From Dongia deserti (GTDB lineage Bacteria; Pseudomonadota; Alphaproteobacteria; Dongiales; Dongiaceae), in contig NZ_QORW01000004.1 of the NCBI RefSeq assembly GCF_003574735.1, positions 186,001-250,000 of the forward strand: a stretch of 64,000 bases of DNA. Reading direction: 5' to 3'. Below, piece after piece: positions 42,945-50,023 of this stretch. The stretch's first letter is position 1. Every line of letters starts with the position of its first letter. The position numbers and the translations under genes are program-made. Below the pieces are notes generated by a model that saw only the letters and a list, made by a program, of their open reading frames with translations, was not told where the DNA came from and searched no databases.

Positions 42945-43130
42945 TCCAAATTAGAGATCTTGAGGCGCAGAATGCTTGAAGTGCTGCCGCATTTCAACCG
43001 CTCTGCAACAAATCGTTAACTCAGCGAAATTCCACAAACTCTCGAATCGGATCAAAGGACTGCTTGCAGCTTGCCGGAAGGCCGGGGTTACACTGGCGTG
43101 GAAGGGCACCCCCAGCAACAGCAGCCATCC

Positions 43131-45191
43131 ATGCCGCGCTTGCCGCTTGCGAGATCCCGGTCGCCGACTCTGTCGCAGCGCATGCTGGCGATTCTTACAG
43201 CCAGCGTCGTTGCGGTCAGCGCCCCCGCGGCCCTGGTGTTCTACTTCTTCACGCGGGACGCCTCCATCGCCGAAGCAGAGCAATTCGCGGCGACGGCGAC
43301 CGACCGGCGAATTCTCGGGCTCAACTACACGCTGCACTTGGCGCACACGAGCCTCTCCCGCTTCGACCTCATGTTGCGCGACAACTTGGCTGCGCCTGCG
43401 ACGGACCAGGAGGTTGAACGCTTCACCGCCGGATTGGAGCCCAATGCCGCCAACGTCCTGGTCTCGCGCCGCAGCGGGTTCGATGGACGCACCCAGGCAG
43501 GCGTTCTCCTTCATCCCAACGCGCCCAAGGGAGACGCGCTCTACCGTCTTCATGCGCGCACCCAGCGCCTGATGACCCTCTATGCCGGCACGGTCGTGCC
43601 GCCGCTCGATTCGATGTGGCTGCTGACGCGCGATCGGACAGGCGTCATCTATGCGCCGCGTGATCCCGAGTTCATCTACCGCGCCACCGCGGACGAGCCA
43701 TACACCGAATCGGAATGGCTGACGCTGGGCGACCCTGCCAACAATCCCGACCGCAGGCTGCGCTGGACCAATGTCGCTTTCGATCCGATCTTGCGCACTT
43801 GGATGATCAGTGCGGTCCGGCCGTTCGATCTCAACAACGTGTGGCTGGGCACGATCGGCCACGATCTCTTCCTCGATGAGCTGGTGCGGCGTCTGGTCGG
43901 CACCGATGAGTTGCCGGGGACGCAGCACTTCCTGCTCGATGCCGATGGCGATCCGATCATCGCCGGCAGGTGGCAAGAGGCGCTGGAAGCAAGTCAGCTG
44001 ACCGGCGACGCGCGCAGCGCGTTCAATGATACGGTCCATGCGCTGCAGGCGGCCTTCAACGGACGCACGGGGGATCGCGGGGCCGTTCACGCCGAGCTGG
44101 ACGGCGAGACGGTTTCGGTCTTGATGCGCACACTGCCGGAAACCGGGTGGCACTATTATATCGTGACACCGCTTTCCAGCATCACCGGCAGCGCATCGAA
44201 AGCACTGTTGCTGTTCGGCCTGACGGCGGCGGTGGCGATCGTGCTGGTGGTTGCGGTGACGCATCTGCTGGTCCAGCGCCAGATTGTCCGACCGATCCGC
44301 CGCCTGGCCGATGCCGTGCGCGGCTTCGCCGCCGGCGACACCGAGATACGCGCGAAGGTCGATCGCGCGGACGATATCGGGGATCTCGGCCAGGCGTTCA
44401 ACGCGATGGCGGATTACATCGCGACCTCGCATCGCGAGCTGACCCAGACGCAGCAGGAGCTGCAGCAGCGCAACGCGGCGCTGGTCGAGGCGAACCGGAC
44501 CAAGTCCAACTTCCTCGCCAACATGAGCCACGAGTTGCGCACGCCGCTCAACGCCATCATCGGTTTCGCGGAGATCCTGCGCCATCAGATGTTCGGTCCC
44601 CTCGGCAACGAGCGATACACGAACTATGTCGACGACATCCAGCGCAGCGGCCAGCACCTGCTCTCGCTGATCAACGACATTCTCGACATGTCGAAGATCG
44701 AGGCCGGCCGAGCGGCGCTGAAGCTGGAGCGCCAGATACTCTCACCTCTGATCGAGCGCAGCATCCGCATGGCCCAGCCGATCGCCGAGCGCCGCGGCGT
44801 CAATCTGCAGTTCCGTGCGAACGGCGTAGATCTCAGCGCCAGCTGCGACAGCCGCGCCATCACGCAGATGGTGATCAACCTGGTTTCCAACGCGGTCAAG
44901 TTCTCGCCGCCCGGCGGCACGGTGGAAGTCCGCCTGGAGCCATCGAGCCTCGGCGGCGCCAAGATCAGCGTGACAGATGGCGGGCCGGGTATCGAGGAAG
45001 AGGTGCTTCCGCATCTGTTCGAGGCCTATGCCCATCGCGCCGCCATGACCACGCAGCGGCAGGACGGTGTCGGCCTCGGCCTAGCCATCACGAAGGCCCT
45101 GATCGAGCTCCACAACGGCCAGATCCGCGTCGTTACCCAGCCTGGCCACGGCACGACCATGACGCTGGAACTGCCGCCCATCGTTCAGTGA
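43131..45191 (+). CDS. Membrane sensor histidine kinase
   Basis: This 686-residue kinase has a first membrane helix at about 18-38, a periplasmic sensing region of roughly 320 residues (Cache-like, with PRDPEFIYRATADEPYTESE), a second helix near 370-392, a HAMP linker (RQIVRPIRRLADAVRGFAAG), a short coiled coil, the HisKA domain (FLANMSHELRTPLNAI, phospho-His about 478) and a complete ATPase domain (NLVSNAVKFSPPGG, TDGGPGI, GVGLGLAI). No receiver or response-regulator gene is adjacent. The ATG at 43131 is chosen over an upstream TTG at 43071, though no good ribosome site precedes it. It may share a transcript with the degenerate kinase 59 bases downstream. Confidence 0.88.
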   Translation: MPRLPLARSRSPTLSQRMLAILTASVVAVSAPAALVFYFFTRDASIAEAEQFAATATDRRILGLNYTLHLAHTSLSRFDLMLRDNLAAPATDQEVERFTAGLEPNAANVLVSRRSGFDGRTQAGVLLHPNAPKGDALYRLHARTQRLMTLYAGTVVPPLDSMWLLTRDRTGVIYAPRDPEFIYRATADEPYTESEWLTLGDPANNPDRRLRWTNVAFDPILRTWMISAVRPFDLNNVWLGTIGHDLFLDELVRRLVGTDELPGTQHFLLDADGDPIIAGRWQEALEASQLTGDARSAFNDTVHALQAAFNGRTGDRGAVHAELDGETVSVLMRTLPETGWHYYIVTPLSSITGSASKALLLFGLTAAVAIVLVVAVTHLLVQRQIVRPIRRLADAVRGFAAGDTEIRAKVDRADDIGDLGQAFNAMADYIATSHRELTQTQQELQQRNAALVEANRTKSNFLANMSHELRTPLNAIIGFAEILRHQMFGPLGNERYTNYVDDIQRSGQHLLSLINDILDMSKIEAGRAALKLERQILSPLIERSIRMAQPIAERRGVNLQFRANGVDLSASCDSRAITQMVINLVSNAVKFSPPGGTVEVRLEPSSLGGAKISVTDGGPGIEEEVLPHLFEAYAHRAAMTTQRQDGVGLGLAITKALIELHNGQIRVVTQPGHGTTMTLELPPIVQ

Positions 45192-45250
45192 GACGCGCGC
45201 GGTCTTCCGCTCTCATTGTCTCACCGCCTCTTCCCGTATAGCCTGACGCC

Positions 45251-46396
45251 ATGTTGCCGGAACCGCTGCCGCCACCACTTGAGCGTGCACCAACGACGGC
45301 CCCCAAGGAGGGCCTGGCGGGCCACCGCGCGTTGGCCGTGACTCAGGCGATCGGGCTCGCGGCGGCAGGCGTCCTGGGAACAGTGCTGGTGATCGGCATC
45401 CCGCTCCTGCTGCGCCAGCAGAACAAGGTCGCGGCCGCCCTGTCGGATCCGGCCACGGGCGCGGTCGCGCAGGACATCGCCAGGCTCAACATGCTGCACT
45501 GGATCGTGCTGGCGCTGGCCGCCGCCACCTCGATCTGCCTGGTCGTGACGGTGCTGCGTCTGCTGCGCCATGCACAGTCGCAGGATGCCGTGCGCAAGGA
45601 AGCGCAGGCCCTGTTGGTGCGGGCGGAGCGCGCGCGCATGGATGCCGACCAGGCGAACGCCGACAAGTCGCGCTTCCTGGCCGAGGCGGGCCATGATCTG
45701 CGTACGCCGCTCACCACCATTCTGGGTTATGGCGAGATGATCGAGCGGGAGATGTTCGGCGCCGTCGGCCGTCCCGCCTATCGCGAAGCGGCGCAGCAGA
45801 TCATCGGCGCCGGCCGACAATTGCTGGCGCGCATCACCGACATCATCGAGCTGTCGCGGGTAGAGGGCTCGATCGCCAAGCCGGCGGAGCACGCGACCTC
45901 GATCGCCACCGTGCTGCGCGAGGCGCACACCTGGGCGGTCGCGACCTTTGCGCCGAAACGCCTGACCTTCGGCATCCGCATGCCGGAGCTCGATGTCGGG
46001 ATCCGAGTCCAGCCGCTGCTGATGCGCCAGATCGTCCGCGAGCTGATCAAGGACGCCGCCATGCGCACGCCCGATGGCGGTGCGATCATTCTGTCCGTCG
46101 GATTCGGCGGCGACGGCAGGCTCGATCTGTCGATCCGGGATACGGGTCCAAATCCGACGCTAGGTCTGGGCGGGCTGCCACGCCGCACCCACGGTCAGCG
46201 CACGCTCTTCATCTCGCGTGCCGACGAGGCCGCCGGCATGAGCCTGATGATCGTGCGCGCCTTGATGGATTCGATCAGCGGTCGCTTGGCCGTGGTCAAC
46301 ACCAGCGGCCGCGGCTCGGAGATTCACCTGCAGTTCCCGATGCATCTCGTCATGCGCGAAGAGCGCCGCTTGCGCCGCCGCGCGGTGGCGGCCTAA
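45251..46396 (+). CDS. Histidine-kinase-like membrane protein with a degraded ATP site
   Basis: This 381-residue protein has two membrane helices (about 30-54 and 82-104) around a short periplasmic loop, then a HisKA domain with the phospho-His (AEAGHDLRTPL, His148). The following ATPase-like domain lacks key residues: the N-box reads RELIKDAAMRTP, with Asp268 where Asn is needed, G1 reads DTGPN (297-301), and the later glycine box reads AAGMSLMIVR. It therefore probably cannot bind ATP normally. It may serve as a phosphoacceptor or phosphatase partner, perhaps for the full kinase upstream. The C-terminus overlaps the convergent deacetylase gene by four bases. Confidence 0.8.
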   Translation: MLPEPLPPPLERAPTTAPKEGLAGHRALAVTQAIGLAAAGVLGTVLVIGIPLLLRQQNKVAAALSDPATGAVAQDIARLNMLHWIVLALAAATSICLVVTVLRLLRHAQSQDAVRKEAQALLVRAERARMDADQANADKSRFLAEAGHDLRTPLTTILGYGEMIEREMFGAVGRPAYREAAQQIIGAGRQLLARITDIIELSRVEGSIAKPAEHATSIATVLREAHTWAVATFAPKRLTFGIRMPELDVGIRVQPLLMRQIVRELIKDAAMRTPDGGAIILSVGFGGDGRLDLSIRDTGPNPTLGLGGLPRRTHGQRTLFISRADEAAGMSLMIVRALMDSISGRLAVVNTSGRGSEIHLQFPMHLVMREERRLRRRAVAA

Positions 46397-47613
46397 CCCG
46401 ACGCACCCAGGCGCAGCTTCGCGACCGTGGAAAGGGGCACGAGGACGAAGCCTCGCGCCTCCGCCTGTGGCATCCAGGCGCGGATGGCGGCCAAGGTCGC
46501 CGGATGCGGATGGCCGATCGCGATCGCGTGGCCCTTGCTCGCCGCGACCCTCTCGGCATAGGCGAGTTGCTTCATGACCGCGGCCTGGTCCATCTCGTCA
46601 TCCAGGAACACATCGCGCACGACGTGCGCAACGCCCATGCTGGCGGCGAGGCGGTCGCCGATCGATGTGCCGATGGTGCGCGAGTCCAGGAACAGCAAGC
46701 CGCGATCCTTCAGCTCGGAAAGCACGATGCGCATGCCGCGCTCATCCTGGGTGAAGCGGCTGCCCATGTGGTTGTTGATTCCGATGTAACCGGGAAAGCG
46801 GCCGAGACCCCAGGCCAAGCGCTTCTTGAGTTCGCTCTCCGACAGATGCACCTTCAAGGCCTGCGGGCCCGCATCAACGTCGCTATCCAGCGGCTCCATC
46901 GGCACATGCAGCATCAGCTCATGCCCCTTGGCGCGGGCACGCGCCGCCATATTGGCGACACCATCCGCGTAGGTCATGAAGGAGAGCGTGATGACGGCGG
47001 GCATATCGATCGCCATCTCCGCGTGGCTGCGCGCAACGCCGACATCATCCAGCACCACGGCGATCATCGGCCGTCCTCGTGGAACGGCGAAGGCGACCGC
47101 GTTCTTGACCCAAGTCGCATCGTTGCCGGTATAGATCGGCGCCACTGGAGCAATGGTGGCGACTTGCGGTTCGGGCGTTGGCGTCAGCGCGGTCCTGGCG
47201 GCTGCAGCAGGTTTGGCAGATGTGACGAGCGCGGCAGGCGCGACAGCCGGCGTGGCCTTCGCCTCTTCGCCCAAGGTGCTCGCGCGCGACGCCACCGGTG
47301 CCGGCTCTATGACCTGCGGCGCCGGCTTCGGTGCCGCAGGTGTCGCCGCCGCCTGCTGCTGCGCTGGCTTCTCGACCGGCGAGGCATTGAGCGTCGTGAC
47401 CTTGGCGGCGCTCTTCTCGAATAGCGGCAGACCGAAATCGCCGAGATAGAACGCGGCGCCTACTCCCAACGCGAGGCCGATCAGGATGCCGGCAGCGAAT
47501 CGCCCCAAGCCGCTAGGCGTCAACCAGCCAAGTGCGACGAGGCCGGCTGCAACATGCGTGCGGCTTGTCCTGCGCGTGCGGCGGCGGGATCGCGACCTGA
47601 TCTTGCGTGTCAT
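46393..47613 (-). CDS. Divergent polysaccharide deacetylase family protein
   Basis: The 406-residue protein has a basic N-terminus (TRKIRSRSRRRTRRTSR), one membrane helix (about 36-58), a long Ala/Pro-rich linker (70-150) and a C-terminal divergent polysaccharide deacetylase domain (160-400). Domain marks are IAVVLDDVGVARSHAEMAI, LHVPMEPLDSD, NHMGSRFTQDERGM, FLDSRTI and AIGHPHPAT. Relatives of this YibQ-like group sit in the periplasm and are linked to envelope work; a true substrate is not known. It starts eight bases after the stop of the P-type-ATPase-like gene, so the two form an operon. The ATG at 47613 was chosen; the frame is open to 47712. Confidence 0.82.
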   Translation of the reverse strand: MTRKIRSRSRRRTRRTSRTHVAAGLVALGWLTPSGLGRFAAGILIGLALGVGAAFYLGDFGLPLFEKSAAKVTTLNASPVEKPAQQQAAATPAAPKPAPQVIEPAPVASRASTLGEEAKATPAVAPAALVTSAKPAAAARTALTPTPEPQVATIAPVAPIYTGNDATWVKNAVAFAVPRGRPMIAVVLDDVGVARSHAEMAIDMPAVITLSFMTYADGVANMAARARAKGHELMLHVPMEPLDSDVDAGPQALKVHLSESELKKRLAWGLGRFPGYIGINNHMGSRFTQDERGMRIVLSELKDRGLLFLDSRTIGTSIGDRLAASMGVAHVVRDVFLDDEMDQAAVMKQLAYAERVAASKGHAIAIGHPHPATLAAIRAWMPQAEARGFVLVPLSTVAKLRLGASG

Positions 47614-47620
47614 GGGTCCC

Positions 47621-49198
47621 CTATTCCTCGTCGACCTCATTAGCCATGGTCGGGGACAGGCGCAAGGCTTGTGGCAGGGCGACCGCCAGCGCGATGCCGG
47701 CCAAAGCGGCAATCGTGACGATCAGCGGCGAAGCGGGTACATAGCCGAGCCCGGCCGCCAGCAAGGCGACGCCCGGCAGGTTCGCCGCAACGATGGCCAT
47801 CCGTGCGCGGATCCGGAAATCGCGTGCGAACTGCAGCAGATCGACCAGGGTGCGCGGGTCATCCCGCGCTATCACGACCCCGCTGCCCTGCTCGGTATCA
47901 GTCCGCGCACGGCCGCCAAAGTGAACGGTGGCTGCGCACGATTCGAGCGGCGGCTGGCCCGGTCGCGCGAGTCCGATGGCCGATGAAGGCCAATCGGCCG
48001 CGCGCTCCACCGCAAGACCGGTCAATGCCTCCTGGTCTTTCGGGTCGATCTCGACGTTGGCCAGAACGATTGTGAAGTCCGCCTTTCTCAACGTCCGCAC
48101 GGCTTCCGTCGCGCCGGGGCGCGCGGCCCTCGCCAGCACGATGAGTCCCAAGAGGCGCGGCGACGGCGCGGTTTCGCGCAGCGCCAGAACGGCGCGGTGC
48201 AGCTCCGCCGCACGCCCGAGCTGATCCGCAAACGGCGCACGCTCCTCCTCGGCGATCGCACTGGCCGCGATGGTGCCGATTTCGACAATGCGCTGGTCCG
48301 GCAGCTGGCCGCGATGGAGCGCGGGCGTTCCCGCGTCGAGCAACTTGATGTTCGGCACGCGCAGACGGTGCGACACGCCGAAATCCTGCAATCCTCGCGC
48401 CATGTCGCTGTCATCGTCCGCCAGCAGTGCGGCCGCGGTCCCGACGATCTCCCCCGGCTTGGCCTCGCCGACGGGCATGATGCTGATCACTTTCGGTCGG
48501 CTTGCGACCAGCATGCCGGGATCGCTCAGGACGATGTCCCTTCTACCGACGATCGTCGGCAGCGCGGAAAAATCGGCGACGTAGACGCGCCGACGCGCGA
48601 GCACCGCGCGCGCCGTGTCGCACAACCCACCCCAGACCAGCACCGCGCCCGGCGATACTGCTGCCAGCGCAGCGAGCAGAAATCCCTGCGGCGTCTCCTG
48701 AATGGTCGCGATCGCCAGCGCGATGCCGAGCAGCCAATAGCCGATCCGTTCATGCGCGGGCAGCAGCATGCTGACCTGCGGAACGGCACCACCCTGCATC
48801 GTGGCAAAGGCGCGCTGCCCGTCGAGCAGAACGGCCCCTGCAAACAGGAATACCGCCGCAACCCAGCAGATCGCGAGCGCGCTGAGATCCGCCGTGGGCG
48901 CATCGTTGTTCATGCTGGCCATGATCAGCACGATGGTTGCAAACCCGATGGCGAACAGCGGTAGATTGAAACCGGTGACGCGTCCCCGGTAGCGCGCCAC
49001 CCAGCCGCCGATCAGGATCAATTCCCCCACCGCCGCCGCGACCTGTCCGCGCAGCGGCGCGGCACCGACATCCGGTACCTCGGCGAAGAACGACCGCCAG
49101 ACTGGCCAGGCTGCCAGCAGGGCCCCCACAACCGGCCAGAGCCAGACCGAGCGGCCAAACCGCAGCGCAGCGCGAGTCTGGTCCACCGCTTCCGTCAT
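47621..49198 (-). CDS. Catalytically degenerate P-type-ATPase-like membrane protein
   Basis: The 525-residue protein has paired helices at the N-terminus, middle and C-terminus, laid out like a heavy-metal P-type ATPase. The region [15 protein letters not shown] (about 179-193) aligns with the metal-site CPC helix, and [18 protein letters not shown] then [10 protein letters not shown] (204-230) with the segment that normally ends in the phosphorylated DKTGTL. A later [20 protein letters not shown] matches the actuator-hinge region, and the last part ends in two helices and ALPQALRL. The DKTG Asp, CPC cysteines, TGD and GDGxND motifs are all gone. A pump function is therefore unlikely. It leads an operon with the deacetylase family gene. 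Confidence 0.65.
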
Positions 49199-49420: not shown

Positions 49421-50023
49421 ATGTTCATCCTGATCGATAACTACGACTCCTTCACGTACAATCTTTACCATTATTTGGGGGAGTTGGGGGCTGAGATCGA
49501 AGTCCACCGCAACGACAAGATCACGGTGGATGAGGTGCTGGCCAAGCATCCGCAGGGCATCATCCTGTCGCCCGGCCCGTGCGATCCGGACAAGGCCGGC
49601 ATCTGCCTCGACCTCGTCAAAGCCGCCGCCAGGCACAAGATCCCCCTGCTCGGTGTCTGCCTCGGCCATCAGGCAATCGGCCAGGCGTTCGGCGGCGAGG
49701 TGGTGCGCGCGCCGAAGCCGATGCACGGCAAGATCAGCCACATCAAGCACGCCAACAAGAGCGTGTTCCACGGCCTGCCGAATGAGTTCCAGGCGACGCG
49801 CTATCACTCGCTGACGGTGGCGCGCGACACCTTCCCCGCAGATCTCGACATCACCGCCGAGACCGAGGACGGCATCGTCATGGGCCTGCAGCACAAGTCG
49901 CTGCCGCTCGCCGGCGTGCAGTTCCATCCGGAAAGCATCGCGACCGAGCACGGCCACAAGCTGCTTGCAAATTTCCTGCGTGGGGCTGGCTGCAATCTCT
50001 CCGGCTCGCACGTGCTGCAATGA
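49421..50023 (+). CDS. trpG: Anthranilate synthase component II (glutamine amidotransferase)
   Basis: This 200-residue class I glutamine amidotransferase supplies ammonia to TrpE for anthranilate. The catalytic triad is seen as [11 protein letters not shown] (Cys about 79) and FHPESI (His, Glu about 170). It begins [20 protein letters not shown], the standard start; the frame upstream to 49250 is not coding. The stop overlaps trpD as ATGA. trpE is not in the window, and this protein can also serve 4-amino-4-deoxychorismate synthase in some species. Confidence 0.95.

Follow-up and report, generated by a model that had tools for sequence, protein, structure and literature searches.

The pseudo-copA locus and the fold of its product

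The stretch analyzed here (the window, 64,000 nucleotides of Dongia deserti contig NZ_QORW01000004.1) carries on its minus strand a frame of 525 codons plus stop, open from an ATG at 49198 to a TAG at 47621, as the first-pass annotation had reported. This gene (47621-49198, stop included) encodes a catalytically dead P1B-type ATPase homologue of 525 aa and is here referred to as pseudo-copA. On the same strand, sddA2 (46393-47613) begins with an ATG 7 nt past the pseudo-copA stop, with an alternative in-frame ATG at 47640 inside pseudo-copA. Its product is a membrane-anchored (by inspection of the sequence) divergent polysaccharide deacetylase that matches PF04748 at E 1e-75, and the zinc-site DD, H, H are intact in all 16 SddA2 rows. 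The operon with an envelope deacetylase-like gene that had been proposed is thus borne out by both domain match and spacing. On the plus strand, trpG (49421-50023) diverges from pseudo-copA and is the first gene of trpG-trpD-trpC-moaC-moeA, a syntenic anchor whose gene names are presumed from the sequences. Two tandem histidine-kinase-like frames (43071-46396, plus strand) run convergently into sddA2; the second also lies beside sddA2 in G002 (84.6% identity) and was not found there in Dongia loci.

The pseudo-copA product matched the NCBIfam model TIGR01525 (heavy-metal P-type ATPase) at E 4.3e-6 over residues 202-381 of a 527-residue reading, and no Pfam family at E ≤ 1. Among its orthologues, 11 of 12 matched TIGR01525 (best E 5.1e-36), six of 12 matched Pfam E1-E2_ATPase, and a profile of ten orthologues retrieved canonical P-ATPases from the same genomes with E down to 3.8e-47. 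An AlphaFold2 model of the window protein, built from eight aligned sequences, had a mean pLDDT of 70.8; the P/N part mostly reached 80-93, the membrane part was weaker, and residues 130-183 fell below 50. The best Foldseek match in the PDB was ZntA (4umw, E 3.7e-16), among 250 matches at E ≤ 0.001. With VIA-align the best solved match was ZntA 4umv (Z 17.7, 323 residues, rmsd 3.8), and the ATP-binding domain of A. fulgidus CopB (Z 17.6) and the N domain of HMA8 (Z 16.5) were also matched. A Dongia orthologue of 637 residues matched CopA 4bbj at 1.2e-20. The earlier description as a heavy-metal P-type ATPase homologue therefore stands, and the concern that structure prediction would reveal no P-type fold is removed by the ZntA and CopA matches. 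By its P/N fold, M4-M6 arrangement and detectable homology, pseudo-CopA is a P-type ATPase in fold and descent.

From the N-terminus, the protein begins at its first helix, and no Pfam or NCBIfam match to an N-terminal metal-binding domain was found. The N-terminal membrane region (residues 16-126, 48821-49153), assigned from hydropathy and AlphaFold2, holds counterparts of MA, MB, M1 and M2, the predicted helices at 16-37, 48-69, 78-96 and 100-135 being of low to middling confidence. A short linker (residues 127-145, 48764-48820) replaces the deleted A domain with its TGES, and is followed by the M3-M4 region (residues 146-202, 48593-48763; AlphaFold2 and hydropathy), in which M3 lies in a low-pLDDT stretch. 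By motif alignment, SPG (residues 182-184, 48647-48655) stands in place of the CPC metal site of M4, and SDPG (residues 225-228, 48515-48526) in place of DKTG, with no phospho-acceptor aspartate at the position. The N-domain fold (residues 233-357, 48128-48502) has a pLDDT of about 84-93 in ten-residue blocks and lacks SEHP. The remainder of the P domain (residues 358-446, 47861-48127), placed by motifs, AlphaFold2 and structure match, lacks TGD and GDGxND. The M5-M6 region (residues 447-513, 47660-47860; alignment and AlphaFold2) opens with an RxDPRxxxDL segment and leads to a C-terminal tail, ...TMANEVDEE (47624-47659), which is conserved in amino acids and codons and probably includes the ribosome binding site of sddA2.

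An alignment of the 12 family members with 33 canonical P-ATPases was used to assess the catalytic motifs. DKTGT, CPC, SEHP, TGD and GDGxND were absent from all 12 orthologues, and none had an aspartate at the phosphorylation position; DKTGT was present in 33 of 33 canonical rows; those rows were chosen by DKTGT, although no locus was without it. The SDPG of the window protein is replaced elsewhere by GEPG, GDPG, LSPA, GRAG, GHRG, GHSG, AHRG or GRGG. The losses reported from the first reading (SDPG for DKTG, SPG for CPC, TGD and GDGxND missing) all recur in the alignment, which adds SEHP, with DDSD at its position in the window protein. The loss of the whole A domain goes beyond the first reading. 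The A domain was judged by eye, the script having missed the TGES pattern in its own reference row; the window genus is scored as lacking it because at most 57 residues separate M2 and M4. Dongia orthologues keep an A-domain-like segment without TGES, and G009 has ‘TGSV’. That the protein still pumps by means of unusual catalytic residues is scarcely credible: homology speaks for it and nothing further, whereas the phosphorylation aspartate, CPC, GDGxND and SEHP are gone in 12 of 12 and the window genus has no A domain.

Distribution and purifying selection

A single-sequence scan of the genome contigs found no orthologue loci, and the same contigs scanned with a multi-sequence alignment yielded seven; a search among 61 relatives gave nine matches. 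With a profile search, an orthologue was recovered in 12 of the 17 genomes of the Dongia family (529-709 bits), these 17 being the full sample of the order examined. The carriers include Dongia mobilis, other Dongia and MAGs labelled Rhodospirillum sp., Rhodospirillaceae and Proteobacteria, and the remaining five genomes had canonical P-ATPases only. Beyond the family, neither 385 class genomes nor 398 phylum genomes gave a match of orthologue scale, and the phylum matches outside the family still retain DKTGT. All 12 orthologues share the catalytic losses, are open, and lie upstream of a PF04748 gene.

Three architectures were observed. Dongia-type proteins have four N-terminal helices, an A-domain-like segment and M3-M6; those of the window genus have the four N-terminal helices with the A domain gone; and the 502-residue protein of G009 keeps the A-domain segment and has lost the N-terminal helices (M1-M2). 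Since these lineages retain different parts, no single interface is common to all except M3-M6 plus P/N.

Pairwise dN/dS (Nei-Gojobori) for pseudo-copA was 0.27 (G000-G002), 0.31 (G000-G003), 0.31 (G002-G003), 0.17 (G008-G012) and 0.16 (G015-G013) in the five closest pairs. Values were 0.26 for G015-G008 and higher for G011-G016 (0.38) and G000-G001 (0.62, with dS near 1 and therefore the least reliable). The downstream deacetylase domain gave 0.13-0.21 in the four pairs computed, a comparison that omits the rows of G001, G012, G013 and G015, which the pattern missed. Neutral simulation of the window gene over 200 lineages gave a mean dN/dS of 0.91 (sd 0.10, minimum 0.62), and every one of the 200 acquired in-frame stops, 5.5 on average. 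The 0.16-0.31 of the five closest pairs thus indicates purifying selection, in agreement with the earlier view that the gene is kept intact. Antisense ORFs overlap pseudo-copA, but the synonymous pattern fits the pseudo-copA frame, and a spurious ORF in GC-rich DNA is ruled out by 12 orthologues under protein-level selection.

The gene might instead be a pseudogene caught before its frame broke, and the first-pass annotation had allowed that its relatives could all be decayed. Pseudo-copA is the fastest-evolving gene of its block (22-28% identity between genera, vs about 67-80% for trpG and trpD), and five family genomes are without it, both of which would suit decay. Against this stand 12 open frames and dN/dS far under neutral, where neutral lineages average 5.5 stops; decay is rejected on these grounds for the well-sampled genera and is very improbable overall.

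By region, dN/dS in the window genus was 0.27-0.29 in five of six regions and 0.52 around the former DKTG, the least constrained; in Dongia it ranged from 0.09 to 0.29. The Dongia minimum fell on the former DKTGT site, which reads GHRGVLVP in Dongia-type orthologues (e.g., L015 and L020), a hint that the former catalytic centre has been put to another purpose there. This constraint, together with the persistence of the N-domain fold in the model, would be expected if pseudo-CopA were a ligand sensor or passive channel, its N domain or membrane part binding a nucleotide or ion and signaling or leaking with no phosphorylation. However, no Cys, His or non-start Met column reaches eight of 12 rows, which makes a metal site unlikely, SEHP is gone in 12 of 12, and in the window genus constraint is weakest in just this region. 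We consider a sensor or channel unlikely, though still a serious candidate.

Descent from a copper locus

To place the gene, the region around the match was read in the 17 non-family genomes of the class that gave a match at E ≤ 1e-50. An intact P-ATPase with DKTGT lay beside trp genes and upstream of a same-strand SddA gene in 10 of them, trpD being present in all 10 loci and trpG detected in six. The other seven had neither trp genes nor SddA, the stretches being short in two (G086 and G162). A MerR-type gene separated ATPase and SddA in nine of the 10 syntenic loci (G379 was without it); the two MerR-type genes tested both matched TIGR02044 (CueR), and three of three syntenic ATPases tested matched TIGR01511 (copper), all above cut-off. 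When P-ATPases were ranked by the profile of the dead family, the trp-linked CopA came first in 10 of 10 genomes (e.g., 204 vs 154 bits); in genomes where a second P-ATPase was detected, its lead was 46 bits or more. In sequence trees the branch of the dead family is too long for it to be placed among canonical ATPases or trp-linked CopAs, so that the case for orthology is made by synteny and best scores. Taken together, the syntenic intact CopA and the best profile match in 10 of 10 identify the window gene as the dead CopA of a copA-cueR-sddA2 operon. Pseudo-copA, though catalytically dead, is thus almost certainly orthologous to the copper-exporter gene copA of this trp-adjacent locus and represents a degenerate counterpart of an intact copA, which the first-pass annotation had not recognized.

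In 28 further class SddA loci (two of them repeats of earlier ones), the end of an intact CopA lay upstream in six and CueR alone in one, and small CopZ-like (CopA-N-terminus-like) frames followed SddA in four. SddA2 thus occurs in a copper locus (copA-cueR-sddA2, sometimes then a CopZ-like frame) in many Alphaproteobacteria (L058-L138; L122, L129, L134, L138). We are aware of no description that connects copper handling with the deacetylation of peptidoglycan. A cueR-copA pair elsewhere was found in 12 Dongia-family genomes, as judged by coordinates, the best CueR matches lying beside another P-ATPase. On the simplest reading, copper export would have moved to, or been kept by, this second pair. 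In the Dongia family the trp-linked copA has lost its metal-binding domain, CPC site and whole phosphorylation machinery, and cueR has been lost from the trp locus, with the ATPase position retained. In some genera the trp-linked copA is absent altogether.

Pseudo-CopA and the downstream deacetylase

Across the 12 genomes with pseudo-copA, sddA2 is immediately downstream in every locus read, and wherever long flanks were available the gene is divergent to trpG-trpD-trpC-moaC-moeA. The distance from its stop to the sddA2 start, judged by eye, is a few nt or an overlap in 11 of 12 genomes and is longer in G009. Between genera, the last eight codons use the same codon at 72% of same-amino-acid positions, vs 43% in the body, and the DNA of the final codons, GCT AAT GAG GTC GAC GAG GAR, is conserved between genera whose proteins are otherwise 21% identical. 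A GAGGA-like sequence lies in these codons just 5' of the sddA2 start. Part of the 3'-end conservation therefore resides in DNA and not only in protein, a point beyond the first reading, and the tail as a pure protein motif is weakened. An ATG in frame with sddA2 was seen by hand within the last pseudo-copA codons in five of 12 genomes (window 47618-47644), and translation of sddA2 may thus begin within pseudo-copA.

The close or overlapping starts, the codon conservation and the GAGGA-like sequence are all compatible with a frame kept mainly for translational coupling to sddA2, the protein itself being of little weight. Such a leader predicts a dN/dS near 1 in the body, in contrast to the regional values found (0.27-0.29 in five of six window-genus regions, 0.09-0.29 in Dongia), and the P/N fold is confidently predicted. 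We regard a mere leader as improbable.

The reading we prefer, plausible but held tentatively, is that pseudo-CopA is an inner-membrane, non-pumping partner of SddA2; its membrane location, the contact and any cell-wall effect are what we infer. The two proteins would be co-translated from one message, pseudo-CopA would hold, place or control SddA2, and SddA2, like E. coli SddA, is probably an enzyme that trims denuded strands of peptidoglycan. The “scaffold or sensor” role suggested at first likewise stays at the level of a proposal. The wider proposition, in which a copper pump has become, throughout a bacterial lineage, a membrane subunit that does not pump but controls the cell's only intact SddA-type peptidoglycan deacetylase, is conceivable, with the balance somewhat against it. 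Against a partner role, SddA2 occurs with no dead ATPase in four of 17 family genomes (G004, G005, G006 and G010) and with no CopA upstream in many class genomes, and therefore does not need pseudo-CopA in general. The differing architectures, which have at most M3-M6 plus P/N as a common interface, and the higher dN/dS of G011-G016 and G000-G001 also speak against it. Among the family genomes without pseudo-copA, trpG and sddA2 are immediate neighbours in G005, G006 and G010, and G007 lacks this copy; in G004 an acyltransferase-like frame (L086, 3579-4808) lies between trpG and sddA2, at the place of the dead ATPase.

A second SddA, linked to envC-ctpA (SddA1; L104:5769-6788 in G000), lacks the pair of zinc-site aspartates in 16 of 16 window-family rows, and the aspartates are also lost in 12 of 12 chosen rows of envC-linked copies from other class genomes, both counts covering only rows that span the zinc site. 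In the second copy, which in many cases lies in the copper locus, the pair is intact in 16 of 16 rows and, in a set that partly overlaps these, in 14 of 14. Judged from these residues, copies linked to envC may be pseudo-deacetylases across the whole class. PF04748 scores of SddA1 were at most 148 bits in genera with the dead ATPase vs at least 201 in those without. The idea that the dead ATPase appeared where SddA1 lost catalysis was dropped, as the zinc residues are lost with and without the dead ATPase and there is no clean link between the two losses.

If the partner reading is true, pseudo-CopA would be a P-type ATPase pseudoenzyme acting in the cell envelope, and its locus connects genes of copper homeostasis with a deacetylase of peptidoglycan strands. 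These are conserved dead members of a well-studied superfamily whose intact counterpart is still found at this position in sister families; their graded architectures (full, A domain lost, M1-M2 lost) let one ask what the P-type fold does without catalysis. In line with the first-pass remark that no function is described for such a protein, a literature search of limited coverage, including a word search of the review PMC10654040, found no P-type ATPase pseudoenzyme described, and earlier surveys could hold cases.

Pseudo-CopA shares with CopA (the P1B-1 copper exporter, TIGR01511; trp-linked) its gene position, the M3-M4-P-N-P-M5-M6 order and the fold, but is without the metal-binding domain, CPC, TGES, DKTGT, SEHP, TGD and GDGxND; compared with the trp-linked CopA, the A domain is deleted (window genus) and the locus has no cueR. 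Kinases, phosphatases and proteases all include familiar pseudoenzymes. Pseudokinases and iRhoms, like pseudo-CopA, have lost catalytic residues and kept fold and selection; their non-catalytic role is demonstrated, whereas that of pseudo-CopA is our proposal from the genomic evidence. KdpB, the P-type subunit of KdpFABC, works in complex with a channel subunit and so offers a P-type fold serving a partner protein, comparable to the role proposed for pseudo-CopA, although KdpB keeps its catalytic cycle. For the downstream gene, the nearest characterized relative is E. coli SddA (YibQ), described as a denuded-strand deacetylase (PMC12440217), which is of the same family (PF04748) and has the same DD, H, H; it adjoins envC, whereas the window copy, with a membrane anchor by inspection, adjoins trpG and a dead CopA.
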